From: Malassezia japonica
Lineage: Eukaryota; Basidiomycota; Malasseziomycetes; Malasseziales; Malasseziaceae
Length of the DNA stretch: 64,000 bases
Assembly (NCBI RefSeq): GCF_029542785.1
Contig: NC_083374.1
Coordinates: 124,001 to 188,000 of the forward strand
Direction: 5' to 3'
Shown piece by piece: positions 3,860 through 62,575 of the stretch; positions within the stretch are counted from its first letter, which is position 1, and the number at the start of each line of letters is the position of its first letter. The translations under genes were made by a program, and so were the position numbers. The notes beneath the pieces are model-generated. The model ran no database searches, had not been told where the DNA came from, and worked only from the letters and a program-made list of their open reading frames with translations.

Positions 3860-5589
3860 CTAGTTATCCTCGAGCCACCGGTACTCGAACCGGAAGTCGC
3901 TCTTGCGCCGCTGGCACCATGACCCTTCCCAGTCAAAGTAGACGTACGCCCCTTGTTCATACTCGTCGGTAATCGCCTGCGGCTCCGAATGCCGCTGGAA
4001 CCAGGTGAGGTACTGCTTGTGGAAGCGCCACGACTGCTTCTTCAGCTCGCGCGCGGCGAGGTACTGGTGGTATGTGCCTTGCTGGTAGTAGAAGATGAAG
4101 AAGAGCGTGTCCACATCAAACTTGGCATACAGCGCGGGGTTATCAAAGATCGCCGCGGGCGTCTGGGGGTAGTAATGCGGCGTGGGGAAGGGATCCTTCG
4201 GGACATAGTACTTCGGGCTCTCGCTGTCCACCGGCTCGGGCGCTCCGCCGGCATAGCTCGTGTCGAGCGAGTGCTGCATGTGCGACATGTTCGCATCGCG
4301 CTGCAGCGATTTTTGCTTCGCCGACTCAAAGGACGTGACGAGGTCCGAGAGCGAGTCGGGCAGCCGCGCATCCGCGCCACTCCGCTCCGCAGGGCGTGCC
4401 TCGTCCGCAGGTGCAGCGGGCTCGGGGCGCTCGGCTTGTGCCTCGCTCGGCGCAGGGATGCCGGGCGGGGGGGACGAGGTCGACACCGCCGCCGCCGCCG
4501 CCGCCGCGTACCGGATGGGGGGGAGAGGCGCCGCACTCGCGGTGCGCGCAGGCTGCGCCACCGGCGACGCCGTCGCCGACTGCACCTTGCCTTGGTCGAA
4601 GTTGGTGACCACGCGCTCCTTGGCCGCCTCGGTCTTTTTCGCAGCGGCCTTCTTTGGCGCCTCCTCCTTGGGCTTGGGCGCCGGCGCCGGCGCGGGTGCG
4701 GGCGCCGGCGCAGGCGGCTCCTCCTTCTTGGGCTCCGGGGGCGTCGCGGGCTTGGGCGAGTCCTCCTTGACGGGCCGCGGCTCGTCGGCGGTGACCGACG
4801 TGTCGCCGTCCTCGTTGTCCTTCAGACCAAAGACCTCCTCTTCGTCGTCCAGGTTGAACTCGTCATAGATCCCGTCGTCCTCTTCAAAGCCCTCTTCCGC
4901 ATTGCTCTCGACAAAGTAGGAGATATCCTCCTTGATATCGTTGATGCGGTCCACGTCCAGCGTCCCGTTTTCGAGCATGCGCATCAGGATCTCGATGCGC
5001 GAAATATGCCACCCTCTCCGCTCGTTCAGGTGCTCCATCTGGCCGACGACGTCCTCCTTCGAGGAGCCCTTTTTGCTCTTCTTGGCCGTCGCGAGCGACT
5101 GCTCAATCTCCGCCTCGGCGCCTTCAATCTGCCGCGAGAGCTCGTCGACCATCGAGGTGAGCCACTGCTGCATCTCGACCTTGGCTTTTTCGCTGGGATC
5201 TAGCTTCGCAGCTGCAATGAGACCCTCCTTGGAGAAGGCTTTTGTCTTCATCTCTTTCTCGCACGCCTTGAACCGCTCCATTTGCTGCGTCAGTCGGGCC
5301 ACGTACCGTTTCAATCAGCCGCCGGTTCTCCATCAGCGGCTTCTTGTCCTTAATGTCATTGCTCTGGAGCCATGTCTTGATCTGGTCGCGGTGCCGCTGC
5401 AGCTTCTTGATCTGCGTCTTGAGGTCCGCTTCGAGCTTCTCTTTCTGGCCCTGGTTCGACGAGGTCTGGAGCTTGTCGTACAGGCCCTCAAAGACCTCGA
5501 CACCTTCCGAGACCTTTTTAAAGGTCCGATCGATTTCGGCTGGGGGTCAGTCGCCGCGCGCACGTACTCTGCAGCTTTCTCGCCGCCAT
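3860..5589 (-). CDS. NOT5: CCR4-NOT complex subunit NOT3/NOT5
   Basis: Subunit of the CCR4-NOT deadenylase complex in mRNA turnover and transcription. Exons are complement(3860..5284, 5307..5539, 5568..5589), giving 559 residues. The N-terminus MAARKLQTEIDR is rebuilt only when the 28-nt intron at 5540-5567 is removed. The join of ENRRLIET to [18 protein letters not shown] needs the 22-nt intron at 5285-5306. Both junctions match the highly conserved Not3 N-terminal coiled coil. The middle is Pro/Ala/Lys/Glu-rich. The C-terminal NOT box (about 430-559) includes [19 protein letters not shown] and ends [10 protein letters not shown]. It is divergent from bL19m with 102 bp between the starts. 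Confidence 0.95.
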
Positions 5590-5691
5590 CGTTCACGGAT
5601 CCCTGGAAAGCCAGCGCCGCAACCGCGCGCGCATCGCATGTGATCGGGAATATTTCGGGAAATGCCCTTTTGCAAAGTCTCTCTCGACGAC

Positions 5692-6403
5692 ATGCTCCGG
5701 ACACTGGCGGCGCGTGCCGTGCCGCGGGGGGCGTTTGCGCTGCCCCGCGCTCTTCCAGGCATGCAGCAGCGCTTGCTTTCTGCTTCGGCCGTGCGTGGCG
5801 AGGAGAAGGGTACGTCGATTGACTCACACAGCGCCGGCCTACCCTTTTGCGTCGCACGTCGTGACCCGCTCGCATGCGGCGCCGCGCGAGGACTCGGTGC
5901 GTGCCGCGCCACCTACGCCGCGGCACCCGTCGCGGGGTGTGATGCCGCGCGTCGACTCGCACCTCACGACCGAGATTGACCCGGACGAGAAGATCGCACG
6001 CCTTTTCTCGCGCCGCTCGCCGGAATGCGTCCCGCCGGGCTCGATCATGCTCGTTGAATCGTACCTGTCGGCGTCCAAGACGAACACGACGACGTTCTCG
6101 GGCGTGCTCATCGCCGTGCGCCGCGCGGGAATCGCAACGACCTTCCTCCTGCGCACGATTGCGCACAAGCTGGGCGTCGAGGCGCGCTTCTTTGCATACT
6201 CGCCCATGATTAAGGATATCCGCGTGATCCAGCGTGCGGATGCGCGCAAGGGCGAGCGTGGCCTGCTGCGTACGCGCCGCGCAAAGCTGTACTACATGCG
6301 CCGCCGCGACGACCGCCGCGTGAACTCGGTCGCGCACGTCGTCAAGCAGTTCCGCTCGAACGAGCTGCAGCAGGCGGACCGCGCACGTCGCCAGAAAAAG
6401 TAG
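5692..6403 (+). CDS. IMG1: Mitochondrial large-subunit ribosomal protein bL19m (IMG1 family)
   Basis: Protein of the mitochondrial large ribosomal subunit. Exons are 5692..5809 and 5832..6403, separated by a 22-nt GT-AG intron (5810-5831), giving 229 residues. The first ~35 residues are Arg/Ala/Leu-rich without acidic residues, as expected for a mitochondrial presequence, which is why the ATG at 5692 is preferred over the one at 5662. The core shows bL19 features: VPPGSIMLVES, FSGVLIAVRRAGIATTFLLR, FFAYSPMIKDIRVIQR and RRAKLYYMRRR. It is followed by 387 bp without a clear gene. Confidence 0.9.
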
Positions 6404-6790
6404 TGGAAGTGCTACGTACTACGATGTAGAAAGACATACCCTACGAGAAGAGAGAGAGACGAGTGGAGGATGCCGAAATTGGGCGAATTGACGGAAAGAG
6501 GTGGAGAAGGAAGGAGCGAGATGTAAACGACCGCTGGGAAGACGATGGCCCGCACGACAAGAGGATGCAGGTAGGCGGCATTCAGAACGTCTTGCGCAGG
6601 ATGGCGCACAGCGCCAACAAAAAAGCGCTGACATAGGATGTAGACAATCGAGGTGTCCATGATCCGCATCCATCCAGTACTATGTCCGTGTCCTCGTCCC
6701 ATTCTCGCGCCACGCCTCTCCCTGCACTGCGCGCCTCCCGCGCTCACACATAGGTATACACATTTCGTTACTATGGATCGTGGAGATACA
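6404..6790. other. Intergenic region without a supported gene
   Basis: This 387-bp stretch separates two mitoribosomal genes that converge on it. On the minus strand an open stretch starts MGRGHGHSTGWMRIMDTSIV (ATG at 6702) and runs through a T6 tract. Reading with one T fewer would end it as FLLALCAILRKTF with a stop, which resembles a small single-pass membrane peptide. There is no homology I recognise and no canonical intron, so I do not call a gene. Confidence 0.5.
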
Positions 6791-7150
6791 CTACCACGAC
6801 GCCTTTTCAACGCCCGGAAGGTCGCCGGCCAACGCCTTTTGGCGGAACTGGTACTGCGGTCAGCCACTACACATACACGACACAGACCAAAGTCGGTCAG
6901 AATACCACGTCCGCGCCCCGTCTCGGTGCACCGCTCCTTCACCGTCGCCGGGCGCGAGCGGTTCGGGAAGGTGTTCAGCTCGAGCTGCGCCATGTGACGC
7001 ACACGCGGAGGCAGGGTCGTGTTGCGTGCGATGTACTTGTACGCACGGCGCAACAGCTCGTTCGAGTGCACCGCGTGGCGCGCAGCCATATCGCGCCTGT
7101 CTGTCAGTCGGCACCACCTACAAGACGCGCGCATTCGGACGAACACCCAT
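6791..7150 (-). CDS. MRP2: Mitochondrial small-subunit ribosomal protein uS14m
   Basis: Zinc-free S14-type protein of the mitochondrial small ribosomal subunit. Exons are complement(6791..6853, 6877..7096, 7122..7150), giving 103 residues. The introns are 25 nt (7097-7121) and 23 nt (6854-6876). Splicing rebuilds [17 protein letters not shown] at the first junction and [19 protein letters not shown] at the second. Both are diagnostic of uS14, whose C-terminus is typically LPGVxKASW. The body reads [17 protein letters not shown] and [16 protein letters not shown]. The gene is divergent from 5-aminolevulinate synthase across 167 bp. Confidence 0.95.
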
Positions 7151-11825: not shown

Positions 11826-13853
11826 ATGGGGCAGGGCGCGGACCAGGGCGAGGTGCCCTCACCGCCGCCCGGCGTCAGAGCTGCATTACGGTCGCGCGGA
11901 CAGCAAGTACGGCACATGCGCACAATGAGCGGGCTGAGCATCGAGACCAAGAATGCACAGCCCGCAAGCGAGGTACGCACACTGCCCGCCAAACCGCCCA
12001 AGCGCCCGCTGCTGGGCGGCCTGTACTTTACCGATCTGCTCGTGTTCCTCATATCGCTCGCTGCGAATATCCTGCGTACGTGCGCCGTGGCAGAGATTTT
12101 GGACATGGTATGGTTCGGAATTGTGTACATCGGTACGTCGCGAAGCTCACCATCAGTCTTTCGTTTTCGGCATCAGCTGCAGGCACGCTGGAAGCTGAGC
12201 AAGCGCCAGATGCGCGCGGGGGGGAGCGCGCCGTGCTTCTTCTCGGTGTTTGTGCTGTGCGGCACACGCTTCGTCTTGTCACGATTTCCGTACATGCTGC
12301 CGCGCATCGCGCTATCGCAAGAGACCGCCGGGCCGCTCGTCCAGTGGCGCACCGGCGGGGGGGTCGCACACCTCGTGCGCCCGTACGACTGGGCGGACCA
12401 CGAGCCTTCGAGCCAGGCGCCCCTCCCTTCGCCAAGCATCCAGCGCGGATTCCGGGCGTATTGGATCCGCGGCGAGCGCTGGTCGACGCCCCCGACGCAT
12501 CCCCCCAAGGAGGGCCAGCGTCGCGCCGTGCTGCTCTTTGTGCACGGCGGCGGCTTTGCCCTCGGCTCTGTCGCGCTTTACACCGAGCCGATCCTGCGTG
12601 TCCTGGGCCATGTACAGAAGGCGAGCAGCGGCCGCGTGCACGCGGACTGCGTCGCGGTCGAGTACGACCTGGCGCCCGGCGTGCGCTTCCCGACGCCGCT
12701 ACTGCAGTGCCTGCGCTGCTACGCGCACCTCGTCGAGGTCGAGCACATCCCGCCCGAGCAGATTATTCTGTGTGGCGACAGCGCCGGGGGCGGGCTTGTG
12801 ATGTCGATGCTGCTCTGCCTTGCGAAACAGGCGCAGGATCCCCTGCTCGGCGAGCGCGACTGGAGTCGGCTGCCGGTGCCTGCGCGGGCGATGCTCATTA
12901 GCCCAGTGGTGGATATACGGCCGCAGCAGGCGTTTGCCTTTACGTCGCTCCGGCAGCAGGCCGCGGCGCCGGACCCTGCGGTGCGCCGCGCACTCGAGCG
13001 CCGTGCCACGTCGGACGCGGCGCCTGGCGCGCTCGATTTTCTCGCACCCGAGGCGCTGATGCACTACGCGCAGCTCTATGCCGGCGTCCTGCGCCGCCCG
13101 CGGCGTGCGCGCGGCCCCGCGAGCTGGCTGTGTGCCTACCTCGAGGAGCAGCAAATCACGCCCGGGATGATGAAGCCTGTGTCGACTGCCGCACACTATC
13201 TACACCACTTTCTCACGCATCCCCTCCTGCACAGTGCGCCACGGCCGGCGCGGTCCGACGCCGTGCCAAAGTATACGAGCACGCGCTCGGCGGTCGTGCC
13301 GCCCGACGAGTCGTGCAGCGACGCGATCGCCCGGCCGCATGCGCTGTACCGGACGTCGGCGCTGCTCGGCGTGCACACATCGCCGCAGGCGGTGCTTGCA
13401 ACACACACCCTTCTGAACCCTGGGCTTGGGGACTGGAGTGCGATCCACCTGCCCCGCGGCATCTTTGTGACATGGGGCCGCAACGAGGTGCTCGCCCACG
13501 ACATTGAGGCGTGGGTAGCACGCGTCCGTCTTGTGTGGGCGTCGCAGGAACGCGACACGGCGCTCCTCGAGACGGTTCCTGAAGTGGGTCATGGTGGCGT
13601 GCACATCTGGCCGTTTGTGTGGATGTACCTTGCTGCGCGGCAGAGCGAGCGGGAGCGTGGCCTGCGCACGCTCGCGCATGCGGTGCTCGGTCTGTACCCC
13701 GACGAGCTGTGTATGTCGCCGTCGGAGAGCGAGTACGACTTCTCGTCGCCCGCGTCGATGCCGAGCGACTACGAGGAGGAGCACAGTGCCGACTTTGCCG
13801 CGCAGGTAGCCTGGGAGCAAGAGCTGATGCGCATGGGCCTGCGCCCGCCATAA
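11826..13853 (+). CDS. Membrane-anchored alpha/beta hydrolase (HSL / steroid-deacetylase type)
   Basis: Probable lipid or sterol ester hydrolase. The N-terminal region carries hydrophobic segments (LLVFLISLAANIL and following). The catalytic domain contains the oxyanion motif VHGGGFALG, the nucleophile motif GDSAGGG (Ser about 311 in the spliced protein) and a likely acid and histidine near RNEVLAHD and GHGGVH. The order fits the hormone-sensitive lipase family and resembles membrane-bound Say1-type deacetylases. A 24-nt GTACGT...CTCAC...AG intron (12133-12156) is predicted. Being a multiple of three, it leaves the frame open either way, so the protein is 667 residues spliced or 675 unspliced. 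The start at 11826 is the first ATG after the upstream stop; 11926 is an alternative. Confidence 0.8.
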   Translation: MGQGADQGEVPSPPPGVRAALRSRGQQVRHMRTMSGLSIETKNAQPASEVRTLPAKPPKRPLLGGLYFTDLLVFLISLAANILRTCAVAEILDMVWFGIVYIGTSRSSPSVFRFRHQLQARWKLSKRQMRAGGSAPCFFSVFVLCGTRFVLSRFPYMLPRIALSQETAGPLVQWRTGGGVAHLVRPYDWADHEPSSQAPLPSPSIQRGFRAYWIRGERWSTPPTHPPKEGQRRAVLLFVHGGGFALGSVALYTEPILRVLGHVQKASSGRVHADCVAVEYDLAPGVRFPTPLLQCLRCYAHLVEVEHIPPEQIILCGDSAGGGLVMSMLLCLAKQAQDPLLGERDWSRLPVPARAMLISPVVDIRPQQAFAFTSLRQQAAAPDPAVRRALERRATSDAAPGALDFLAPEALMHYAQLYAGVLRRPRRARGPASWLCAYLEEQQITPGMMKPVSTAAHYLHHFLTHPLLHSAPRPARSDAVPKYTSTRSAVVPPDESCSDAIARPHALYRTSALLGVHTSPQAVLATHTLLNPGLGDWSAIHLPRGIFVTWGRNEVLAHDIEAWVARVRLVWASQERDTALLETVPEVGHGGVHIWPFVWMYLAARQSERERGLRTLAHAVLGLYPDELCMSPSESEYDFSSPASMPSDYEEEHSADFAAQVAWEQELMRMGLRPP

Positions 13854-15244: not shown

Positions 15245-15533
15245 ATGCGGGGGGTGGTACGTGCTCTGGCTGACACAGTGTGACCATCTGCGTGCGGAAC
15301 TGGCCGAGTGCCTGATGCAGTCGGACTGCGTCCAGGTACAGGGACACACAGGAAAGGAGTGCCTTACCAACCACCTCAAGGAGCTCTCGCCAGAGTGCCA
15401 GCAGGCCTACCACGGCTTTGTCGACTGCAAGCGCTCCTTGCTCGACATGCGAAAACGATTCCGCGGCATCCCGGGAGCCGAATATAGCACGTCGTCTACG
15501 ACGTTCGCCGCACTGGACAAGCGGGGGACATAG
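15245..15533 (+). CDS. PET191: Cytochrome c oxidase assembly factor COA5/PET191
   Basis: Small intermembrane-space twin-CX9C protein needed for cytochrome c oxidase assembly. Exons are 15245..15256 (only 12 nt, MRGV) and 15279..15533, with a 22-nt intron between, giving 88 residues. After splicing, cysteines fall at 5, 15, 21, 32, 44 and 54. C5-x9-C15 and C44-x9-C54 form the two CX9C pairs. CDHLRAELAECLMQSDCVQV and FVDCKRSLLDMRKRFRG match PET191 closely. Without splicing C5 would be lost, which supports the junction. The TAG stop is immediately followed by the stop of the gene on the other strand. Confidence 0.95.
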
Positions 15534-17283
15534 CTACGAAGGAGGTAACGGCGGCAAGGGCGGCGAACTCCGGGGGGGAAGCATCGGCGCGTACGCAGGC
15601 GGCGGCGTCGACGCCCGGGGGGGTGCAGCCAGGGGGGAGGCATAGACAGGGGTGTGGGGCGACGGGACACGCACCGTGGACCGCGGCGACGGGACACGCG
15701 CAGGCACGCCGCCGGGCGACGTAGGGATCGTCAACGGCGAGAGCCTCATGGGCGACGACGCGCGGGGGGGCGTCGGCAGTGGCGACGATGCGCGAGGCAC
15801 GGCGTGGGGCGAGGCCAGGGGCGAGGCCAGGGGCGACGACGCGCGCGCGGGCGTCGCGGTGCGCGGCATGTCGAGCGATACGCTCGCCAAGCGGTTCGTG
15901 CCTTTTTGGGGAGTCGGAAGCGGGCGCCGCGTCGTCGGCGACGGCAGGGGGCGCGACGTGTCGATCGACGTGTTCCGGCCGTAGATCGCCTCGTGCGCAG
16001 ACAGCTCGGCGGCGTGGGGCGACATGAGCGCGGCCGCCGCCGCCTCGATCGCCTCGGCGTCCGTCGTGACGGCGCGCGTAGGCCGCTGCAGCATGTGCCG
16101 CGAGTGCCGCGACGCGTCCTCGTACGACGTGTCGTACGACGTGTCGTCCGGCGCGCGCCACGGCGAGAGCATGTCGGGCAGCGACGCAGCAGAGTCGTCG
16201 GCTGTGAGTGGCGGGAGCCACTGGCCGCTCGCCGAGTACGCGAAGCTCGAGCCGGGCAGCGTGCTCGGCGCGCTGGGCGAGCGGATCGGCGAGAGGCCGT
16301 ACGCGCCTGGCGACGGCGGCGCCGTGTCTGTGCTTGGCGCGCCTGGCGCAAGGAGCGGCAGACTATCGGAGCGCGGCACCGCGGCGCCGGGTGCAGGTGC
16401 GTGGGGCGAGCGGAGCGGCGGCGTGCGGACGCGCGGGGGGCTGTGCACGCCCCGCTGGTCGTACCTGCGCGGCGGCGGCAGGATCGTCGCCGGAGCGGGC
16501 GCAGCGCACGGCACCGAGTGGTGGCGTGCGGTGCTCGACGGGGACGTCGGCGCTACATTCTCCGTGGTCCAGGCGCGCGTCGGCACCGGGGGAACGCGGC
16601 GGTCCTGTCTGGCGTGCTCCGCGTGGGAATACGGGGGGGTATACGTGCCCGGCGGCGCGGTGAGGTGCCCTGGCTGGAGAAGCGGCGGCACGGTGCCTGA
16701 TGCGGAGCGTGGCGCGAGCACCTGTGAGGTAGACGTGGTGCGCACCGGCGTCGCGACGCGCACCGGACTGGCGGTGCGGATCGAGGAGCCCGGCGTGCCC
16801 GGCGTGGTCGGCGGCGGCCCCTGTCCCACGCTGCCGTACTTGGGTATGTCGAGCGAGTAAAATGTGAGCTCGACGTATACCTCGCCCGCGTACCGCTCGT
16901 TCTTGGTGAGTGGAATCCACTGGTCGTGCTCGCCGTGCTGCAGGACGTGGTCGAGGGCGAGCGTGCCCTCGCCGATCATGTCCGACTCCTTGTCGAGCGC
17001 AAAGCAGGCGATGCCGAGCGCGTGGCCGCTTGCGCCGTCCGGCGCAAGGGCGTTTTGCATGCCATCGTAGATCTCAAAGTGCAGCTGCTCGTCCCAGAGC
17101 GGGTGCTGCCCACCCCTTTTGTCCGGGCGCGTGCGCTGCGTGTCGTCGCCGACGGACAGCTCCGCATAGGGATCCTGCTTGCCTATCGAGCGCTTATTAG
17201 GCAAGTTTTTCTACATCAGACGCGCGACGTACCGCCTTCAGCACGACGCACACGAGCGTGCCACGATGGCGCCCTGGCGGCAT
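15534..17283 (-). CDS. C2-domain protein, Inn1/Fic1-like
   Basis: Predicted cytokinesis or polarity adaptor. Exons are complement(15534..17210, 17233..17283), giving 575 residues. The 22-nt intron (17211-17232) joins GTLVCVVLKA to KNLPNKRSIGKQDPY, which restores the first strands of a canonical C2 domain (about residues 7-125). The remaining ~440 residues are Pro/Ser/Thr/Arg-rich with many PPxxP-type stretches, as in fungal Inn1/Fic1 proteins that bind SH3 partners. That orthology is inferred. Its TAG stop abuts the COA5 stop. Its start lies 33 bp from the start of the divergent small mitochondrial gene. Confidence 0.85.
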
Positions 17284-17673: not shown

Positions 17674-17723
17674 TAACTCGCACAGTGCGCTACAGGGTAT
17701 CTCTTACGCATAGAACTCTGATG

Positions 17724-20700
17724 TTAGCCATAGAACATACTCTTGTTGATCAGCTGCACCAGCGCGTTCACGTCGAGCGTGATCGACTGGTCGAGCACGG
17801 CGATGGTGCGGTGGCCGTTGTACTGTGCCTCGAGCAGCTCCTCCATGCGCACGGCGCACGTCCCCGCCGGAACGTGCGAGACGGCGGCCTCGATGAGGAA
17901 CACGCCGAGCTCGTCGCTCGACAGCGTGAGGGAGACCTGGTCGATGGTCATGTTCGACGGCCCGTCGATCGCGACCAGCACGCCGCGGTCCATCAGGCGG
18001 CGTGCGGGGTACTTGTAGGACCCAAACTTGGGCATGGCGTTGGCCGCCTTGAGGCTGCGCTCGTGGAAGTACTGCTTCGAGAAGGGCAGCGTAAAGTTGT
18101 GGCTGCGCCGCTGCATCGTCTTCATCGTCTGGTCCGCATAGCGCTGGTACTCGGCGATCTGCGTCTGCATAAAGGCGTGGCGCTCGTGCAGCTTGTGCAG
18201 CGTGCCGGACAGCATCTGCTGCTCGGCGCGGCGCGCGTGGCGGCGGCGGTGGCGCAGGCGGATGTCGAGCGCAAGCGCGTCGAGCATCGCCTGGAAAGCA
18301 TCGCTGCGGCGCACCTTGCCCATCTTTTCCAGCTGCACGAGGTTCTCGAGGGCCATCGCCTTGAGCTCGGCAAAGGAGAGCTGCTGCATGTCGCACAGCT
18401 CCGTCCCGACCTGGGGGCGCGCAGCGTCCGCGGCGAGCGCTGCGTCCCACCGCGCCTCGTCCGCGTCGGTGACCGGCGCGAGGAAGAGCGTCAGGAGCGT
18501 CGGCGCGGTCTGCACCTTGAGCACAGCCAGCACCAAGCGCTTGGTCTCGACAAACAGCGCCTTGGCCTCTGCGCCGGGGTCGCGCACCCCGGCAAGCTCC
18601 TGCGAAAGCTCGAGCGGGATCTCTTCGCTGCGCGCCGCCTCGAGCTCGGCCGTGGGCGCGACCGGGGGCGGGCCGAGCTGCGCGAGGATCGTCTCGAGCG
18701 GGTCGTCGGCGCTCGTCGCGAGGTTCGACAGGTTGTTGCACAGCAGCTGGTGCACTGCATAGATCTCGTTTGGCGAGATGTAGATCAGTGGCTTGTGGCT
18801 GCTCGCCGCGTCCGTGTAGTCGTCCGTGCCAAACTCCAGCTCGGGGTCCTCGCACGTGTCGATCATGCCCTGCATCCAGCGCTGGAAGCGCGGCGCGGTC
18901 TGCAGCACGTACTCATTCAGCGGCTGCAGACGCGGCTGGTCGTCGCCAAACGGCACGCCGCGCGCGAGCTGCAGCAGCATCTGCGAGACGACCGCAAGGT
19001 TGCGGCGCGTGCGCGCCTCGAGCACCGGCGTGTCGTCCAGGACGCTCTCTGGCGCGACGACCGCGGGGTGGATGTAGCGGTAGTAGATCACCTCGCACAC
19101 CGCGCGGAGCGTCGCCTCGCGCGACTCGCCAAAGCGCTGCTCAAGCGCGCGGAAGAGCTCGCGTGCAATGTAGCGCATGCTGTACGGCATCTGCGGCGAC
19201 GCGGCGCGCAGCGCAGCAAAGAACTGCTCCGTGGCGGCGCGCAGCGCCTGGAGGTGCAGAATGTACAGGTTGCGCGTCCCCTGGTCGTTCAGCGCCTGGT
19301 CAAAGTCGGCGTCGGGCGCACGCGACGGGCGCACGCCGGTCGCCGCCTCCTCGCGCTCGTAGCTCAGGCGGTAGAGCACGCTGGGGTCGGTCTCCAGGTC
19401 GAGCTGCGCGTCGGTGACCATGTGCTGCACGACGGGCGCAAGGAGGTTGGCGAGGTACGCCTTTTCTTGCACGCCCCGCGAGTAGTGCACCAGCAGCTTT
19501 TGGAACGCGGCGTCGCACACGACAAACGCGTCGAGCGACGGCACGCCGCTCAGCTGCTCGCCAATGGCGCGCTGCAGCAGGCGGAGCAAGAGGTACTCCT
19601 CGCGCGGCTGCTGCGCGTAGCTAAAGAGCGTGAGCACGGTCTGCTCAAACTGCGCACGGTCCGCGTCAGGCAGCGTCGTCGAGGCGTTGGTAAGCACGAG
19701 GAGCTTGGCGAGGTACTCGGGCCGCGTCTGCAAGAGGTAAAAGAGGCCCGAGTACAGCTCGCGCTGGCGCGCCGTCGTGCGGTCCTGCGCCTCGGAGAAG
19801 GGGTCGCGCGCCTCGGCCAGCACCGAGTTGCGCTGGTACGCGTGGCCCAGCAGGCCGCGCTCCGTGCGCTCCTTCGCCGCCTCCTCGATCCCGATCTTGT
19901 TGCGGATGAGGATCGCGTTCTTTGTCTCGAGCTCCGACACGGTGTTTTCCGTGGCCTTGTTCTCCTTGATGCGCGCCACAATCGCGGCGCGCAGCTGCTC
20001 CACGGCGATCTCGTCGCGGTAGTCGGCGTCGCTATTATCAAGCAGGTGCGCAAACGCCTTGACGGCCGCGAGAGGAGGGCGCTCGGAGCGCAGCGCGCGG
20101 TAGTGCGCGCCTTGGATGTGCGCACGCACCACGCTCTGCACCGTGACAATGTCGCGCCGGTGCGCAAAGTAGTGGCCCCACCGCGCGCGGAAGCGGCGGC
20201 GGAGCAGCGTACCCCGCACCAGCGCCTGCAGGTGCACCGCCACCGGCTCGCTCTCGTACAGGTGCTGCGCCCACCAGCGGAACTCTTGGCGGACGAGCAT
20301 GCCGCGGATCGCGGCCTGGACGCCGGTCACGTCGGGCTGCACGTACTCCATCTCCTTGCGCAGTTCCTTGTGCTTGCGCCGCAGGAGCGCGGCACGCAGC
20401 GAGGACTGCATCTGGTTCACCGAGCGCACGACCGTCACCTCGCGGAACGCCGCGCGCATCTGGCCGTAGGAGCGGCGGGCGAGCGCGCCGCGCGCGTGCG
20501 CCTGGAACGTGGCAATGGCATCCATGTCGCCGCGCAGCGCCTGCACGCGCTGCAAGAGGCGCTGCTGCGCAAGCACCGTGCGCACGCACGCCTGCACCTG
20601 CACAAAGGTCTCGGTGCGGCGCTCGAGCGCGAGCAGCACGCCAAAGATGCGGCGGCGCTCGAGTGCGCCGCGTGCGTGCGCCTGGAAGGCGACAATCCCG

Positions 20701-23021: not shown

Positions 23022-23693
23022 CTACAAGCCCGAGAGGCGCTGGCCTATGCGGTCGCGGAAGTTGGAGTAGGCATTGAGCAGGGCTGGGTGAGCTGGGCGA
23101 CGTACTCTGCTCGGTGATTTGCACCTCGATCGCGTCGGGGCGAGGACGCGTCACGCGGTTCGCGACCGCGGCGCTGTCGGTCTCGAGAATGACGCTGCGT
23201 GAGCTTCGCAACGTACCCGTCGTCGACGCTCTCGTCAATCGCGAGCGTGACCAAATCGAGGTTGTCGAGGATCGTCCGCTTATCGATCTGGCTCTGTAGA
23301 AGGACAGACAACGTTTCGTAGAGCGACGTAAGAAAACTGTGCATCATCAGCTCGTTCTCGCGCTCGGGCGCAATCACCACGAGGAACACGTCGTAGGTCG
23401 ACTTGAATAGCACAAGGTTGCCGTCGTACTGGAACAAATCGCCAGACGCACGGCGCGCCTTGTCCCACACCGCGTGCTCCAGCGCACGCTGCTCCTTGGC
23501 CGTCTGGTAGGGGTTCTTGGCCGTCAGCGCCCCAAGGCCGGGGGTCGGCACGGGAGGCGGCGCATCGCTCCCGTTCTCCTGGGGGGGCTGGTAGTATTTC
23601 GCGAGGACCCGGTTCCCTTCCGAATCGAGAAGGAGCACTGCATTAGCAGGGATACGTACCCGCCCGCGTCGTATACAGCGTCAGGTTCATCAT
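23022..23693 (-). CDS. RET3: Coatomer subunit zeta
   Basis: Small subunit of the COPI coat for retrograde Golgi-ER transport. Exons are complement(23022..23083, 23106..23194, 23217..23637, 23660..23693), giving 201 residues. All three introns are exactly 22 nt (23084-23105, 23195-23216, 23638-23659). Splicing yields NLTLYTTRAVLLLDSEGNRV, AIDESVDDGVILETDSAAVA and ITEQTLLNAYSNFRDRIGQR. Each continues the longin-like zeta-COP fold across a junction. Two adjacent ATGs (23693, 23690) could start translation. The gene begins 25 bp after the stop of the TBC gene on the same strand. Confidence 0.95.
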
Positions 23694-45217: not shown

Positions 45218-45854
45218 CTGTCTCCCTCGGCCCGTAGCAGGAAACTAATGCCTTGTGACTGTAGCTTGCGCTGGAACTGGTCGAGCCACCGCTGGAGAAG
45301 CGGCACGGCCTGCGGCGCCGAGTCCGGCGCAAAGCTCGAGAGGTACGAAAAGACGTTTTGTGCTGCGTGAGCGGGGCGACGTACCGATCGGCGCAGCGAG
45401 CTGCGCGGCCTCGGCGGCCTGCGCCTCGGGGCCCGAGCGCGACAAGACCACGGCATTCGCCGCGGGCTTCGAGGACGAGAGCGTCTGCATCTGGCGCTCG
45501 AGCTCGTCGAGCGTCTCGAACGCGAGGCCGAGCGAGGCGGTGATCGGCACCGCGCTCTGCTGGCGCTTGGGGTCGCGCACACGAAAGATGGCCGACGGCT
45601 TGGTATTTTGCAGGCTGCGTTAGTCTTCCCACGTACCAGCCCAGCAGCTGCCAGTGCGGCTCCTGGTCGCCCAGCTGGGGCCACATCAGGTGCACGGTCG
45701 CGCCGTAGCCCTCCGGAAACGCCTGCTCGCCGGTCATGAACACGACAATATGGTTGATGAGCTCGGCATTCTCCAGCGGGAACACGGCGTGCGTCGCGTC
45801 AATCTGCTGGGGAGGCGGCAGCGGCAGCCGCCCGGCCACCACACACGAAAACAT
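45214..45854 (-). CDS. OPI10: Hikeshi/OPI10-family protein
   Basis: Homologue of human Hikeshi, the nuclear import carrier for Hsp70, and of yeast Opi10. Exons are complement(45214..45362, 45385..45614, 45637..45854), giving 198 residues. Both introns are 22 nt. The N-terminus MFSCVVAGRLPLPPPQQIDA and the motifs INHIVVFMTGEQAFPEGYGA and HWQLLG-CLQNTKPSAIFRV (across the first junction) are diagnostic. The last exon reads QNVFSYLSSFAPDS and QRWLDQFQRKL. The start lies just 30 bp from the divergent ribokinase start. Confidence 0.94.
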
Positions 45855-46915: not shown

Positions 46916-48427
46916 ATGGCGACGCGTTCGCAAGGCGCGGGGCCGATGGTCGTCCGCGGCACCGTCACGCCGAGCAGGGCGTCGCGGTTCTTTTTGCCGC
47001 GCGTACAGGAAGCGCCACACACACCGGAGACGCCGGCGTTGTCAATTTCGTTTTCCACGCCGTATATGCCGACGCCCAGCACGCCGAGCGAGCCGGACTC
47101 GCTGCGCGTACGGGTTGTGGACTCGGACTCGGACGCGGACGTGCCGCTGTCGCCGTGTCTGGGGCGCAAGCGGCGGAAAATGGTACAAGAGCCCAGGATC
47201 CCGTTTGCCTTGCAAGGGCAGAGCCGGGGGCCGCGGTGGGCGCAGCGAACATATACCCAGGAAAAACGGTCGACGCACGCCTTCTTCTCGCGCATGGCGA
47301 CGCGTACAGAGCACCCGTACTACGTCGAGTCGACCGTGCCGCATGCCATGGCGAGCCCGCTGTGCGCGACATACATGCACGCGGCGCGCGACGTCGACGA
47401 TCCCCTGCCTTGCCTGGCCGTCGGCGACGACGAAGGGCGCATCCACCTCCTCGATACCCAAACCCCCTCGGACTCGCTCGAGAAAAGTACGTCGCGGTGC
47501 TAACCCAGGCTTTGTCAAGCACACGACGCAGCCGCTCGTGCACGGCTCCGTCTTTGCCGCCGAATGGCGCAGCGACGACCACGTCCTGGCGATCGGCGGC
47601 AGCGACTACTCGGTGTCTGCGTGGGACGTGCAGCACGAGCTGTGTGTCGCGCACTACGACGCACACAACGGGAGCGCACGCGCACTTGCGTGGGACCCCG
47701 ACGACCGCCGCTTGCTCGCGAGCGGCGCACGCGACGGCGCCATCTACCTGTGGGACCTCCGGCAGAGCGCCGCGGCCGTGCATATCCACAAAGCGCACGG
47801 CATGCCACGCACACGCCGCGGCACACGCGTCGCGGGCGTCACCTCGCTTGCGTATGTCAACGGGCAGCTGGCGAGCAGCTGCAGCGAGAATGGCGTCGTA
47901 AAGATGTGGGACCTCCGCTCGGCGCAAGCGCCCCGCATGACAAGTAGCGACCTGTCGGTCGGCCGCGCCGGGAACACGCGCCCCCACGGTGTCTCGTCGC
48001 TCGCGTATGCGCCGACGCGCCGCCGTCTCTATGCTGCATGCACGGATGGATGGTACGTTTTTTCATTATTTCTGACGCAGTGTGTACGTCCTCGACCCGA
48101 GTCTCGAGGCCGATGCGCTTCCGCCGTACGAGCCGCGGTCGCTGTACCATGCCGTGCAGCGCCGCAACACGCTGTACGCGCGTGCCGCGCTGTACGACGA
48201 GCGCTACCTTGCGCTTGGTTGCAATACCGGCGACATTGTCGTCTGGGACACGGATGCGGCCCATGCCGCCGTCCTCCCCCGTGCCCACGAAGAAAAGTAC
48301 GTCGAGCGACTAACGCAGTGCCGAAGTCAATGCCGTCTCGTGGATGCATGGCCCCCGTGGCCCGACGCTGGCCTCGGCGAGCGACGACCAGACCGTACGC
48401 GTGTGGGAACCGGGTCACTCTGTATAG
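46916..48427 (+). CDS. WD40-repeat protein, CDT2/DTL-like
   Basis: Exons are 46916..47486, 47509..48052, 48081..48296 and 48319..48427, giving 479 residues. Introns are 22, 28 and 22 nt. After a ~120-residue disordered, basic N-terminus come at least six WD40 blades (for example AWDPDDRRLLASGARDGAIY, LWDLRQS, VVKMWDLRSA, DIVVWDTDA, ASASDDQTVRVWEPG). The order and sequence resemble Cdt2/DTL, the substrate receptor of the CRL4 ubiquitin ligase, but the match is only by impression and other WD40 families are possible. Each intron junction restores a beta-propeller strand. Its stop abuts the stop of the convergent THR4 gene. Confidence 0.85.
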
Positions 48428-53960: not shown

Positions 53961-55939
53961 ATGGACCGTGGGCAGCGTGGCCGGCCTGTGATGGTGTACC
54001 CCGGCGGTGGGCCGACGCCGCCGCGGCCTGTCGAGACGAATGTGCATGCGAGCTCTTCCTCGGGTCCGGTGCTACCCGGCGGGACGAGCTGGGTGCTCGG
54101 CACGAGCAGCGAGCCGATGCGTCCTCAGGTGCCGATCGCCAAAGCGCAGGCGATGTACTCGACCTATGCGAGCCAGATGCGTGCGGGCGCGACGATGCTT
54201 ATGCAGCCGATCCAGCGGCATCCGCACGATGATCTGGACCGTGCGGAGCGGTCTGAGCACCGCAGCCGGTATGCGAGCGCCGTGTACTACGGCGAGGACA
54301 ATAGCGACGACGACGACGACTATCAAGACTCGGACGACGAGTACGGCTCGGCCCGCCGCAAGCGGCGACGTGCCGGTACGACGAGCGAGTCGCGTGCGAC
54401 TGACAGCCCCGACGTGCAGAATCCGGGCGACGTGGAGAGCGAGGCGGAGCTCCGGCCGCCGGGCTCGCAGCTCGGCCTGCCGGTGCCGTGCAATCGTTTG
54501 GTGGTGCGGCGGGCGGCGCGCACGCCGCACCAGTACTTTTCCGATGCGCAGCTCACGCAGCATGCGAACGGCGCCGAGGTGCTCGTGCCGATCCGGATCG
54601 AGTTCCACACGGACACGCACCGCATCAAGGACGTATTCCTGTGGAACATCCACGAGCGCCTCATTACGCCGTACCAGTTTGCGCAAATCTTCCTCCAGGA
54701 CCTCGCGCTGCCCCTGACGCCGTACGCGGTCCAGATCGAGAGCATGATTATTCAGCAGCTCTCGGACGCGATGCCGCTGCTGGACGAGGCGGACGTCGAC
54801 GGCCTCGGGCGCATCATCGACATGAAGACGTCTGCGCGCGAGCGCAAGCGTGCCGAGGCCGAGGCCGAGGCGCAGCGGCGCAGGATCGCGGCGGCCAACA
54901 TGCAGGCGGGCGATGCGTTGCCGGAAAAGCGCAAGCGCGGCCGGCCGCGCAAGTACCCCCTGCCTGGCACAGACACCGCCGCGCCGTCGCCCACGCCCCC
55001 GGTCGAGACGCCGGTCGCGTTTGTGCCCGAGCCTCTGGCGCGCGACTCGCCGGCAGAGGCGAGCGACAAGCCGCCGGTTCCGACCGACCCCAAGGCGCAG
55101 GAAAAGGCGCGCGTGCGCGAGGCGCTGGCGAGCGTCGAGGCCGAGGACGATCTGCGTGTGATTGTCGAGTACGAGGTGCAGATCCTGCGCCATATCCTGC
55201 GCGACCGTCTCGAGTGGGACCTCTCGTCGGAGCTCACGCCGGAAGCGTTTGCAATGGCGCTCACGCGCGACCTCGGCCTCACGTCCGAGAGCGGCGTGCT
55301 GATCTCGCATGCGGTGCGTGAGCAGCTCCTCAAGCACCGCCGTGCCGCGCTCGAGCTCGGTCTGTTTGGCAGCGGCAAGATTTACCGCTGCACGATGGAC
55401 GAGCTGGTGCAGGTCTACAAAGACGAGGCTGCCGAGGTCCAGGCCGCGAACCGCGAGCTGGACACGAGTGCAGGCGACCACACGGGCGACCACACGGGCG
55501 ACCACACGGGCGACCACGCCGAGCGCCGCGCAGTCGAAGCGGCAAACGCACTCGAGACCGACGTACCCGCGCGCGACGACGACGTCCTTGCGCCGCCCAA
55601 CACGCGCAGCCGGCGCATTGCCGCCGGCGCGGCCGCGAGCGACTCGTCGCTCTCGGTGCCCTTTATTATTCCCGACAAGACGCTTCCGCTGGCCGTGCGC
55701 AAAGAGCAGGCGCTCGCGACACTACGGGATCTACTTGCGCTCGGCCCGCGCCCCCTCGAGGGCGTGTGGCGCGACTTTCACGATGCGCCCGACTTTGGGC
55801 CCCTGCTCGAGTTCCTCAGCGAGGCCGAGATGGAAAAGATGGAAGAGGCCGACATGCGCGCCAGCCGGTACGTGCTCCTACTGACCTCCACAGACGCAAT
55901 CGGCGCGACGCGCAGCGGCACGGCCGCACGCGGCGGTAA
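53961..55939 (+). CDS. SNF5/SFH1 subunit of a SWI/SNF-type chromatin remodeller
   Basis: Exons are 53961..55867 and 55894..55939, giving 650 residues. The 26-nt intron (55868-55893) leads to a short basic end, [15 protein letters not shown]; without splicing the frame would run on into the eS1 gene. Two SNF5 repeats are clear: [20 protein letters not shown] (near residue 211) and [20 protein letters not shown] (near 400). Between them an AT-hook, KRGRPRKYP, lies near residue 330. An acidic stretch precedes the first repeat and a GDHT tandem repeat follows the second. Choice between Snf5 and Sfh1 is open. Confidence 0.88.
55473..55520 (+). repeat. 12-bp GDHT minisatellite in the SNF5 gene
   Basis: Three perfect GGCGACCACACG units plus a fourth variant, in frame, encode [16 protein letters not shown]. 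Confidence 0.85.
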
Positions 55940-56054: not shown

Positions 56055-56875
56055 ATGGCTGTCGGCAAGAACAAGAAGCTCTCCAAGGGCAAGGGTAATA
56101 AGAAGCGTGTGGTCGACCCCTTCACTCGTAAGGAGTGGTACGACATCAAGGCCCCCGTCTTCTTCGAGAACCGCAACGTTGGCAAGACCATTGTCAACCG
56201 TTCGCAGGGTCTGAGTACGTATCTTTTTTTTGGTCCTTTTGCTAACCGACAGAGAACGCCTCGGATGCGCTCAAGGGCCGTATCCTCGAGCAGTCGCTCG
56301 CGGACCTCAACAAGGACGACGAGCAGGCGTTCCGCAAGTTCTCGCTCCGCGTCGACGAGGTCCAGGGCCGCAACTGTCTGACCAACTTCTACGGCATGGA
56401 CTTCACCCAGGACAAGCTCCGCTCGCTTGTCCGCAAGTGGCAGACTCTCATTGAGTGCCACCAGGACGTGAAGACCACCGACGGCTACCTCCTCCGTGTC
56501 TTTGCCATTGGCTTCACTCGCCGCCGTGCGAACCAGGTGAAGAAGACGACCTACGCCAAGTCGTCGCAGATCCGCGCCATCCGCAAGAAGATGTTCGAGG
56601 TCATCCAGCGCGAGTCGTCGGACTGCGACCTCCGCCAGTTTGTCGCCAAGCTCATCCCCGAGGTCATGGGCCGCGAGATTGAGAAGAGCACTCAGGGCAT
56701 CTACCCCCTGAAGGATGTGTACATCCGCAAGGTCAAGGTGCTCAAGCGCCCCAAGTTCGACCTTGGCAAGCTCTACGAGCTCCACGGTGGTGCTGCGGTG
56801 GTTGGTGCTGAGGACACTGGCTCGAAGATCAAGTCGGGCGAGTTCAAGGAGCCTGAGGTCCAGGCTTCGGTCTAA
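56055..56875 (+). CDS. RPS1: Ribosomal protein eS1 (RPS1/S3a)
   Basis: Cytosolic small-subunit ribosomal protein. Exons are 56055..56214 and 56253..56875, giving 260 residues. The 38-nt intron (56215-56252) is the longest in the window and carries T-rich tracts. Splicing joins NRSQGL to [19 protein letters not shown]. Conserved parts include [39 protein letters not shown] and [20 protein letters not shown]. Codon use is visibly more biased than in the neighbours (mainly C-ending codons plus GGT, GTT, ATT), as expected for a highly expressed gene. Confidence 0.97.
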
Positions 56876-57246: not shown

Positions 57247-57808
57247 ATGGCCAAAGGCGCACAGAAGCGCATTGCTTCGGGCAACGCAAGTGCCGTGTCG
57301 ACGCTCGCATACGGCTTTGTGATCTCCAACACAGTCCACCTGCTGCTCAACTTTTGGCTGTGGCGCACGCCTGCGACGACGCACTGGCGCCCGGTCGCCA
57401 TGTACGTCGTGACCGAGGCGATTGCGGCCGTGCTGGGCCTCCAGCTGGCGGCGATGGGCCGCGCGGGCGACGACCTGAGCCAGAGTGGGCTGACCGCGTA
57501 CATGTTTGACGTGGTGTACATCACCTGGTTTGTGCACGTCACGACCGCGCTGATTTCGCGCTACTTCTGGTGGACGTATGCCGTGGTACGTACTGCTCCT
57601 CACACAGATCCCCGCGTACGCCCTCTACCTCTTGTATACCCATATCCTCGTGCCGTTCGTCTTTGGCGGCAAGTCGCCGCTGAGCCGCGGCACGAGCGCA
57701 CCTGCGCCCGCTCCCGCCGCCGAGGAGCCGCAGGTGAGCAAGCGCCAGGCGAAGCAGCAGGCGCGCAGCGCTCGTGGTCCCCGCATGCAGACGCGTCGGG
57801 GTGGATAG
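57247..57808 (+). CDS. SND2: SND2/TMEM208 ER-targeting membrane protein
   Basis: Small ER membrane protein of the SND pathway for tail-proximal membrane-protein insertion. Exons are 57247..57585 and 57608..57808, giving 179 residues, with a 22-nt intron (57586-57607). Signatures: MAKGAQKRIASGN start, hydrophobic helices around VHLLLNFWLW and YVVTEAIAAVLGLQL, then YMFDVVYITWFVHVTTALIS and, after the junction, IPAYALYLLYTHI. The tail is basic (KRQAKQQARSARGP), as in TMEM208. It ends 28 bp from the convergent FHL1 gene. Confidence 0.9.
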
Positions 57809-60951: not shown

Positions 60952-60968
60952 CGCCTCACTAGCTGTTG

Positions 60969-61741
60969 TCAGGCTGTGAATACGTACAGTCCCACTTCGC
61001 TCTCGAGCCACTCCAGTGTATCCTCGGCGCCGTGCTCGAGCGATGCCCACTCGTACCGATCCAGGCTCTCGTCGGCCTCTTCCTCGCGCTGGTGCTCGAT
61101 GCGGTGGACTTCGAACCACGGCACGCCTTCCTGCGCCTGTGCGGCGAGTTCGTCGGCGGTCCACACGACGCGCACCGGAAAGTGCGCCTCAAAATCGAAC
61201 TCGGGCAGCGCCGTCCGAAAGAGGCTGGGGTAGCGCTGCGCCGCGCGCTGCATCGACAGCGGAGGATTGATCAGCTGCAGCGCCGACAGAGGGTGCGATG
61301 AAGCGTACGTCTCGGCCACCGCACACGCCGGCCCTTGTGCGATGAGCGCGGGCGGAAATGGCATCGGGCCGATCTCGGCTGGGGGGTTGCGGAGGAGCGA
61401 TACCATGTCTGCGTTAGCTATGCGACGTGCCATTTTCCATAAGCGCCAGCACCTCGGACGCGGACTTCTCGCTTGCATCCTTCACATCGAGATCGAGCAG
61501 GAGGGACGTAAAGCCCCGCTGCTGCGCGAGCCGGAGCAGCGGCGCAAATTGCCTGGGTCAGCCGAGCGACGTACTCTTCTGCCATTTTCTCGCCCGTCCA
61601 CGTCGGCGCGGCGACAAAGAGCAGCGGCGTAGGTACCTCGCGCGCCGCCTTGTCGCCCGCCGGAAAACTGCGCAGGGTCGAGATGCGGCGTACGCACCCC
61701 GGCGCCCAGCGCGCGCCCGAGCGCAGGCCTGAAAGCAGCAT
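60969..61741 (-). CDS. Mitochondrial alpha/beta-hydrolase-like protein, probably non-catalytic
   Basis: Exons are complement(60969..61408, 61431..61552, 61575..61741), giving 242 residues. Both introns are 22 nt; the second (61409-61430) has GC instead of GT at its 5' end. The N-terminus MLLSGLRSGARWAPGCVRRI is presequence-like. The protein resembles a short alpha/beta hydrolase: TPLLFVAAPTWTG, GFTSLLLDLDV, then PALIAQGPACAVAETYASSH where the nucleophile elbow GxSxG should be. The Ser is replaced by Ala, so the enzyme is likely inactive or does something else. The family is otherwise unknown to me. Confidence 0.75.
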
Positions 61742-61763
61742 GACAACCGGTCAGTGCGTACGT

Positions 61764-61769
61764 CACGTG
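61764..61769. promoter_or_regulatory. CACGTG box, pseudo-hydrolase / AMMECR1 promoter
   Basis: CACGTG in GTCACGTGCC within the 86-bp divergent promoter. It belongs to the recurrent series. Confidence 0.4.
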
Positions 61770-61827
61770 CCGGTACGTCGGCGTAACGCCGCGCGATCGG
61801 CCACTACGGGTCTTTGGTGTGGCGTTG

Positions 61828-62575
61828 ATGAATGGCTCACCGCCCGTTAAGGGATCGTGTGAAGCGCTGAATGAACACTGCTACTATTGCTTTCAGGTGC
61901 TTGCAGCAGCACTAGGCGTGGATGATCCACCGACGATTGTTCCATTTCCGGACGCGCAAGAAAAAGTGTATGTACTGCGTCTGACCCAGACCGCTTTTTG
62001 TCTCGTGGAATACGCGCGCAGAGTCAAAGTTACGGCAGCCCCCGCTGCGTGGGTGCCTAGGAACCTTTCGGCCACAGGAGCTGCTCCCGGGCCTGATCCA
62101 CTTTGCGAAGCAGTCCGCCTTTCACGACCACCGCTTCAATCCGATTACCGCAGCAGAGCTGCCGCAGCTCGAGTGCTCCGTCAGTCTCTTGAGCCCATTT
62201 GAGCCGTGCGACAACTACCTGGACTGGAAGCTTGGCGTGCACGGCGTCTACCTGTGTATTAAGAACCCTGCGCTGGACGAGGAGTACGCCGAGCGCACCA
62301 AGACCCGCCGCTCCGAAGAGAAGGAGGAGCTTACCGTGACGTTCCTCCCTGAAGTCGCGCTCTCCCAGGGATGGTCCAAGCTAGAGACCATCGACAAGGC
62401 CATCCGCAAGGCGGGGTGGAACGGCAAGATCACGGAGCAGATGCGCGAGTCTTTGCGCGTGTACCGATACAGCAGCCACAAGGCGACCGTTACATGGGGC
62501 GAGTTTGATACCTGGAGGCGATTAGAGAACGATCCTATCACGCGAGTAATCAGTATTCCTCGAGTATCGACCTAA
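61828..62575 (+). CDS. AMMECR1-domain protein
   Basis: Widely conserved protein of unknown biochemical role. Exons are 61828..61967 and 61990..62575, giving 241 residues. The 22-nt intron (61968-61989, GTATGT start) joins DAQEKV to PLFVSWNT. The hallmark LRGCLGTF (family LRGCIGTF) is present, as are FHDHRFNPITAAELPQLECS, DYLDWKLGVHGV-type sequence (NYLDWKLGVHGVYL) and TFLPEVALSQGW. The N-terminus HCYYCFQVLAAAL fits the family. A GTG precedes the chosen ATG. It converges with the IVY1-like gene (57 bp between stops). Confidence 0.92.

Follow-up and report, generated by a model that had tools for sequence, protein, structure and literature searches.

The genome of the skin yeast Malassezia japonica, a species of a basidiomycete genus within the Ustilaginomycotina, appears to carry introns for which 22 nucleotides (nt), a size near the lower end of what any organism is known to have, is both the mode and the floor of the length distribution. 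Within the 64,000-nt stretch analysed here, hereafter the window (C5:124001-188000 of an assembly of 8,433,779 bases in 9 contigs), we placed 33 introns in 19 genes, and 25 of them are exactly 22 nt long. The 22-nt motif introns form one composite unit, in which a GTACGT-like donor, 7 nt, a CTNAY branch motif, 1 nt and a YAG acceptor follow each other with little between the signals. We consider it probable (about 0.7), judging from sequence, that these are introns of the U2 type which erosion has brought down to two steric minima, the smallest size that the spliceosome would tolerate. An earlier note on this DNA had taken such very short elements to be spliceosomal introns, and their GT-AG ends, CTNAY branch motif and the conserved protein frames around them agree with that assignment.

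Thirty-two of the 33 introns have GT-AG ends and one is a probable GC-AG intron. The 22-nt set consists of 24 GT-AG introns together with this GC-AG candidate, and the eight others measure 23, 23, 24, 25, 26, 28, 28 and 38 nt. The earlier note had counted 32 introns in 18 genes; its figure of 25 at 22 nt agrees with ours, and our list holds one more 23-mer, which may be the intron at 17718-17740 (-). The candidate at 61409-61430 (-), GCACGT-N7-CTAAC-GCAG, closes the frame of a hydrolase-like gene and is probably the 25th member of the 22-nt set, and as a class GC-AG 22-mers show no genome-wide excess (34 versus 39 in the control). A further 25-nt intron-like sequence at 60963-60987 (-), which would have been the 34th, lies on the stop codon of the same hydrolase-like gene, where translation stops a few residues on whether or not the sequence is spliced out, and was left out.

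To describe the spacing of the signals, both strands were scanned with a motif grid (GTRNGY, X nt, CTNAY, Y nt, YAG), in which X is the donor-branch spacer and Y the branch-acceptor spacer. The strict 22-nt motif, GTRNGY-N7-CTNAY-N-YAG (X=7, Y=1, denoted X7,Y1), has 24 matches on the two strands of the window, compared with a mean of 0.07 and a maximum of 1 in 60 order-3 Markov sequences that served as the chance control, and the X7,Y1 cell of the spacing grid holds these 24 where about 0.04 are expected per cell. Raw GT...AG length counts in the window show no excess at 22 nt and were dropped as evidence, indicating that GT-AG by itself does not carry the signal, which comes from the composite motif and from the coding frame.

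Genome-wide, the strict motif has 3308 matches (1681 + 1627), versus 17 (13 + 4) for the reversed pattern used as control. The figure of 3308 counts pattern matches; a 264-kb sample picked by position (the window, C1:200001-300000 and C2:200001-300000) contains 103 such matches, and a motif-scored decoder called 94 introns of X7,Y1 geometry in it. A motif-blind decoder, a two-strand gene finder that uses codon usage and GT...AG only with a flat length prior, likewise gave a peak at 22 nt in the 264 kb (41 of 127 introns), the next length being 23 nt with 8. Thirty-nine of the 41 motif-blind 22-mers carry the motif, compared with 103 of 1657 among all GTN18AG strings. The same run called ten introns shorter than 22 nt, scattered as single or double counts, which look like noise. 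In the window, a first pass of this decoder with a high intron cost put one of seven introns at 22 nt, and at five lower costs the 22-nt share was 8/22, 9/27, 10/35, 10/49 and 10/93; we quote the middle cost, 10/35, as its figure for the window.

Excision of the 22 nt keeps the reading frame at most of the 103 motif sites of the 264-kb sample, namely at 90 with 45-nt flanks, at 89 with 90-nt flanks and at 81 with 150-nt flanks. Where both flanks are clear, the frame is kept at 32 of 32, 72 of 77 and 70 of 81 sites with the same flanks. Among 900 GTN18AG controls that do not carry the motif, the frame continues in 152, and 616 read straight through. Fourteen sites are discordant with 90-nt flanks; four of them are introns of one AMSH-like gene, which have neighbouring introns in their flanks, and five of the 14 are confident, two of these again in the AMSH-like gene.

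Comparison of junction positions with Pfam ranges placed 21 of the 33 window junctions inside a Pfam match: three each in the RHEB-like and AMSH-like genes, two each in the NOT5-like, Hikeshi-like, WD40 and sorbitol-dehydrogenase-like genes, and one each in the genes for uS14m, TMEM208, AMMECR1, eS1, a TBC protein, a C2 protein and zeta-COP. For five of the 21 (two in WD40, three in AMSH) the match scores under the curated cut-off. The names RHEB, AMSH, IQGAP and sorbitol dehydrogenase, as well as the mitochondrial 'm' of bL19m and uS14m, are more specific than what Pfam or NCBI gives; they are our presumptions, made in part by resemblance. Homolog alignments supply three further junctions (two in zeta-COP, one in AMSH), which brings the supported ones to 24 of 33. 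The other nine were placed by motif and frame only, namely those of bL19m, uS14m intron 1, the alpha/beta hydrolase, COA5, IQGAP, WD40 intron 3, SNF5 and both introns of the hydrolase-like gene at 61 kb. The earlier note had invoked family signatures for six genes. Hikeshi, COA5/PET191 and Not3/5 match Pfam by name, RHEB is matched as Ras and uS14m as Ribosomal_S14, and zeta-COP is identified by NCBI. The COA5 match begins directly behind the COA5 junction, and of the uS14m junctions one of two lies inside the domain.

Once three 22-nt introns are removed, the zeta-COP gene encodes a protein that matches the NCBI M. japonica protein P0001 without a difference over 201 residues, and thus 22-nt introns are already in use in public annotation. 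The AMSH-like gene contains two microexons of 18 and 21 nt, and its Pfam match (19 bits, cut-off 24.6) disappears when both are omitted. M. furfur protein P0153 retains both without gaps. M. brasiliensis protein P0151 has the 7-residue one and is annotated without the 6-residue one, an absence that looks like an exon missed in annotation. The alignments covered nine of the 120 listed relatives of NOT5 and eight of the 30 of zeta-COP; no NOT5 relative named M. japonica appeared among the matches listed.

To separate total length from the inner spacings, we turned to the motif-scored decoder, which is length-flat with a maximum intron of 140 nt and whose weights were set after the 22-nt introns had been seen. 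It called 190 introns in the 264 kb, 170 of them with a good motif score, the 20 weak ones being excluded from the counts. Ninety-seven of the 170 are 22 nt long, one is 21 nt, 42 are 23-30 nt, and 30 are longer than 30 nt, up to 100 nt. The distribution is therefore one-sided, with 1/170 below 22 nt and 72/170 above. These numbers sustain the view of the earlier note that 22 nt is mode and floor, the 21-mer being the only shorter one, and do not sustain its wording 'locked at exactly 22', which is too strong because only 97/170 are at 22 nt and 30/170 exceed 30 nt. Scaling the 3308 matches by the 97/170 share suggests, as a rough inference, about 5,800 introns in the genome.

It is the two spacings, donor to branch and branch to acceptor, that are fixed, and not, as had been proposed, a minimal total length. 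Among the 22-nt motif solutions of the 264 kb, 103 of 104 are X7,Y1, and the remaining one, scored X2,Y6, has TTCAC at X=7. In this geometry position 17 is the presumed branch A, and the intron ends with a G 5 nt downstream of it. The grid holds 103 matches at X7,Y1 versus 8 at X8,Y1 and 7 at X7,Y2, and Y=1 is found in 103 of the 115 matches with X=7, indicating that the branch-to-AG distance is short and fixed. X and Y tend to be minimal together or relaxed together (2x2 counts 103, 11, 19 and 15; Fisher p 2e-5), and there is essentially no trade of a shorter X for a longer Y among introns; since both spacings are either minimal or relaxed, the data point to two separate minima and to introns at different stages of erosion. 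GTACGT introns with a branch nearer than 7 nt gave 131 matches versus 47 in the control. Of the 100 such matches listed, 58 are 22 nt, 30 are 23-26 nt and 12 are shorter than 22 nt, so that a few shorter introns are possible. All six donors with two solutions in the 264 kb have the second CTNAY further downstream.

The donors are GTACGT-like, with GTACGT itself in 70 of the 103 sampled motif matches. Among the 41 motif-blind 22-mers, C is the base at position 4 in 80%, at position 9 in 71%, at position 11 in 59% and at position 20 in 98%; G or T stands at position 8 in 88%, and A or G at position 13 in 73%. Position 17 is A in 41/41, the base before it is free, and CTNAY stands at its fixed place in 39/41. 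Pyrimidines are frequent ahead of the branch, and a single free base separates the branch motif from YAG. The position-specific preferences indicate that the 7-nt spacer is not neutral filler; as compared by eye, no U2 or U6 pairing accounts for the preferences at positions 8-11.

An account by erosion would run as follows. Under intron definition the spliceosome would pair both ends across the intron, with U1 and then U6 on the donor, U2 on CTNAY, and the first AG past the branch taken as acceptor. Two steric minima, one from donor to branch and one from branch to acceptor, could not be crossed, and deletion bias in a compact genome would push most introns against both limits. The value of 22 would then result from adding two floors, and the total length itself would not be measured. 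Several points weigh against this account. Splicing itself and the identity of the branch A are deduced from frames, homologs and motif; the steric nature of the limits is presumed, and a preferred spacing would look similar; and deletion bias enters as a premise. The preferences within the spacer, above all C at position 9 and G or T at position 8, are not predicted by simple erosion. The 22-nt share in the motif-blind run (41/127, a noisy figure) is lower than the motif-scored share, and 97/170 may overstate it because the motif weights were set with the 22-nt introns already in view. In addition, U1 was not found by the RF00003 search described below.

A spliceosome that acts as a ruler, with a preference for exactly this spacing (A of the branch as base 17, final G five nt later), would place introns under selection from both sides and not only from below. 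The sharpness of the X7,Y1 cell (103 versus 8 and 7 in the adjoining cells), the position-specific spacer bases and the A at position 17 in all 41 motif-blind 22-mers are what such a ruler would give, but the one-sided distribution, in which 72/170 are longer and reach 100 nt, shows that longer spacings are tolerated, and we regard a ruler as unlikely, though it deserves serious weight. Selection on the reading frame is a far less probable source of the length. A retained 22-nt intron always shifts the frame, as 22 is not a multiple of three and leaves remainder 1, and retention would thereby expose the transcript to nonsense-mediated decay; however, the 73 motif-bearing introns of other lengths comprise 22 multiples of three, 32 with remainder 2 and 19 with remainder 1, with no clear deficit of the 3n class, and the motif-scored introns of the 264 kb show no separate length peaks at 19, 20 or 25 nt.

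Equal length by common descent, as expected if an introner-like 22-nt unit had been copied into many genes, would fit the uniform length and shared signals and also the spacer identity, 0.325 versus 0.262 in a composition shuffle. The repeated spacers, however, number only four among 103, which is inside the range of a column shuffle (mean 1.7, maximum 6), and the position-specific base preferences could explain the excess identity, so that we find such an origin very improbable. That the introns are an artefact, chance GT...AG strings in GC-rich coding sequence placed so as to close frames, could draw on the raw GT...AG counts, which are not raised at 22 nt; it is set against 24 motif matches where chance gives 0.07, the genome-wide 3308 versus 17 and the identity of the spliced zeta-COP with an independently annotated protein, and we give it hardly any credence. 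Erosion to two minima remains the reading we prefer.

The earlier note had also suggested a spliceosome adapted to such introns, of which we found no sign in the parts tested. Slu7 is present in the genome (E 2e-91), as is Prp18, with two matches (E 2e-18 and 1e-8), the second of which contains one stop that could be an intron read through. A U2AF65-like gene is present as well (E 4e-66; 224 bits, under the cut-off of 310). U2 snRNA lies at C2:763486-763677 and carries GTGTAGTATCTG, and U6 snRNA lies at C9:407313-407417 and carries ACAGAGA, the usual core strings, both identified by eye. In yeast, a short branch-to-acceptor gap is reported to make Slu7 and Prp18 dispensable. Loss of either factor, expected if the 5-nt gap had this effect in M. 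japonica, is not seen, both being present.

The canonical U1 5' end is AUACUUACC, and the donor consensus of the introns, GUACGU, has C at +4, where no pairing with this end is expected. A search with RF00003 returned no U1 at E 0.001 or 10, though Rfam detects U2 and U6; this is not proof of absence, because scores were obtained for 41 of the 132 candidates and none of the control genomes gave a hit above the cut-off either. ATACTTACC occurs 13 times in the genome versus 18 for the reversed pattern; none of the thirteen sites has an Rfam U1 match, and several look like branch-acceptor ends of introns. The six ATACGTACCTG sites have no Rfam U1 match either. A spliceosome built on a fixed two-part ruler, with a co-evolved U1 rewritten to pair with GUACGU, seems doubtful to us, as the idea draws on the absence of U1 among the ATACTTACC and ATACGTACCTG sites and in the Rfam search.

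In the ciliate Stentor coeruleus introns are 15-16 nt long, 8173 of 8806 being 15 nt; they are described as AU-rich and as having no strong consensus at the branch, and the entries for Slu7 and Prp18 read N/A (PMC9505925). The near-constant length and a branch A at a fixed place, the 10th position in most 15-nt Stentor introns (PMC9505925), are shared with M. japonica, whereas the M. japonica genome is GC-rich, has strong consensus at three sites and retains Slu7 and Prp18. Mikrocytos mackini, a parasite with a reduced spliceosome, is reported to have 224 introns of 16-17 nt (PMC10245619); uniform length and highly conserved sequence are common to both, and M. japonica differs in having thousands of matches and in being a yeast in which the second-step factors looked for are retained. 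Erosion to a functional threshold has been proposed for other taxa in the same source (PMC10245619). Introns of the Bigelowiella natans nucleomorph, 18-21 nt, are likewise very short and narrow in size range (PMC10245619, PMC2483917), but the donor there is described as largely GT(A) with no branch signature (PMC2483917), unlike the GTACGT and CTNAY of M. japonica. A length-locked system of this type would have nearly all its introns within a few lengths, whereas in M. japonica 97/170 are at 22 nt with a tail to 100 nt; lack of second-step factors, listed as N/A in Stentor and not a trait of every length-locked system, is likewise not seen, Slu7 and Prp18 both being present.

Encephalitozoon cuniculi introns average 35.8 nt and many of those of Trichomonas vaginalis are about 25 nt (PMC2483917). 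For Trichomonas a minimum of 23 nt and, in T. vaginalis, 63 active introns are given, and the authors, writing in 2025, rank 23 nt with the smallest introns on record, likening it only to Stentor at 15 and Bigelowiella at 18 (PMC12316389). Short introns with conserved donor and branch sequences, as described for the intron-poor parasites E. cuniculi and T. vaginalis (PMC2483917), link these two to M. japonica; there the introns are few (PMC2483917, PMC12316389), whereas M. japonica has its 3308 matches at one length. Like Yarrowia, Giardia and Trichomonas, M. japonica has the branch at a fixed short distance from AG and no 3' polypyrimidine tract; unlike in these organisms, which are counted as intron-poor (PMC2483917), its donor-branch distance is also single-valued in most introns. 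For splicing in humans a donor-to-branch distance of about 50 nt is reported to be necessary, with Smu1 and RED named as required for short donor-branch distances (PMC6692369), in contrast to 17 in M. japonica by our own reading.

Within the genus, M. sympodialis has been classed as intron-poor (PMC8476143) and Malassezia described as having few intron-containing genes (PMC3744415); M. japonica has 3308 strict 22-nt matches in 8.43 Mb. A 2020 review mentions 'very short introns' in Malassezia genes (PMC7426719). Reported introns have a mean of 37.2 and a median of 30 nt in M. restricta (n=2150) and a mean of 68.1 and a median of 40 nt in M. arunalokei (n=1354) (PMC9241646), and average 76 or 79 nt in M. 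globosa (PMC4634964); the M. restricta genome was annotated with an AUGUSTUS minimum intron of 15 nt (PMC6473144). Shortness is thus known from the same genus, and these accounts, in the parts available to us, give no fixed 22-nt geometry, although means and medians can hide a mode (PMC7426719, PMC9241646, PMC4634964). We found no statement of a fixed 22-nt Malassezia intron in the open-access literature searched, though a printed one may exist; the geometry, as opposed to the shortness, appears to be undescribed in that literature.

Of the individual introns of the window, those described below as motif-bearing have the strict motif. The NOT5-like gene (3860-5589) has a 22-nt intron 2 at 5285..5306 (-), X7,Y1, inside Pfam Not3 and gap-free in eight of nine aligned homologs, the ninth starting later, and a 28-nt intron 1 (X11,Y3) at 5540..5567 (-), also inside Not3, where eight of the nine share the start Met and have no gap. 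A 24-nt version of intron 1 with its donor at 5563 was rejected, since it would break the frame kept by homologs. In the bL19m-like gene (5662-6403) the 22-nt intron at 5810..5831 (+), X7,Y1, closes the frame outside the Ribosomal_L19 match. The uS14m-like gene (6791-7150) has two introns placed by motif grid and frame, a 23-nt intron 2 (X7,Y2) at 6854..6876 (-) inside Ribosomal_S14 and a 25-nt intron 1 (X8,Y3) at 7097..7121 (-) outside the match. The alpha/beta hydrolase gene (Abhydrolase_3) has a 24-nt intron (X7,Y3) at 12133..12156 (+), placed in the same way and outside the Pfam match. COA5/PET191 (15245-15533) has a motif-bearing 22-nt intron at 15257..15278 (+), directly after which Pet191_N begins (residue 5, profile position 4). 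That of the C2-domain gene (15534-17283), at 17211..17232 (-), lies inside Pfam C2. The 23-nt intron (X7,Y2; motif grid) at 17718..17740 (-) is at the 3' end of the IQGAP-like gene, whose C-terminus becomes LINKKFYA, with the RasGAP_C match upstream.

In zeta-COP (23022-23693) the three 22-nt introns confirmed by identity to P0001 are intron 3 at 23084..23105 (-), intron 2 at 23195..23216 (-), inside Clat_adaptor_s, and intron 1 at 23638..23659 (-), which the motif-blind decoder also found. The motif-bearing 22-nt intron of the RabGAP-TBC gene, at 24836..24857 (-), is barely inside the start of the RabGAP-TBC match. All three 22-nt introns of the RHEB-like gene (25012-25656) are inside Pfam Ras: intron 1 at 25082..25103 (+) and intron 3 at 25543..25564 (+) by motif, and intron 2 at 25432..25453 (+) with the motif-blind decoder. 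The sorbitol-dehydrogenase-like gene (25857-27049) has two motif-bearing 22-nt introns inside ADH_zinc_N, intron 1 at 26477..26498 (+) and intron 2 at 26758..26779 (+). The AMSH-like gene (31131-33723) has four 22-nt introns that carry the motif and agree with M. furfur P0153, gap-free at the first: 31493..31514, 31533..31554, 31613..31634 and 31656..31677, all (+). Its 18-nt microexon, at 31515..31532 (+), separates introns 1 and 2, and the 21-nt microexon, at 31635..31655 (+), separates introns 3 and 4.

The Hikeshi-like gene (45214-45854) has motif-bearing 22-nt introns at 45363..45384 (-), intron 2, inside Hikeshi-like_C, and at 45615..45636 (-), intron 1, inside Hikeshi-like_N. In the WD40 gene (46916-48427) one frame closes across all three junctions, those of the 22-nt intron 1 at 47487..47508 (+), found by motif and by the motif-blind decoder and lying inside propeller matches below the cut-offs, the 28-nt intron 2 (X13,Y1) at 48053..48080 (+), placed by motif grid and frame inside such a match, and the motif-bearing 22-nt intron 3 at 48297..48318 (+). 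SNF5 (53961-55939, named by Pfam) has a 26-nt intron (X7,Y5) near its 3' end at 55868..55893 (+), from motif grid and frame, with the junction outside the domain. The 38-nt intron (X21,Y3) of eS1/RPS3A, at 56215..56252 (+), was found by the motif-blind decoder inside Ribosomal_S3Ae. Motif and motif-blind decoder agree on the 22-nt introns of TMEM208/SND2 (57247-57808), at 57586..57607 (+) inside TMEM208_SND2, and on intron 1 of the hydrolase-like gene (60969-61741), at 61553..61574 (-); this gene has no Pfam match, and its intron 2 is the GC-AG candidate. The last 22-nt intron, that of AMMECR1 (61828-62575) at 61968..61989 (+), bears the motif and is inside Pfam AMMECR1.

A short gene at 60475-60951 (-) has an RF-1 domain and is peptide-release-factor-like. 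We also observed a tRNA at window positions 36382-36463 (+) that measures 82 nt against a 71-position model; it probably has a very short intron in the anticodon arm, and we take it to resemble tRNA-Gly(GCC). Another tRNA, in L038 (1797-1879, minus), has an insertion at the anticodon arm too.

The minimal size of an intron, and which inner spacing limits it, is an open question. In the literature searched, tiny introns come for the most part from ciliates, from a nucleomorph and from parasites of reduced complexity, in which loss of spliceosome parts or a weak consensus can confound the answer. Genomes of the M. japonica kind will be misannotated by any gene finder that passes over 18-nt exons or whose minimum intron is set above 22 nt. 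In M. japonica, thousands of natural introns that would stand at two minima, with a strong consensus and with the second-step factors kept, make each limit testable base by base.

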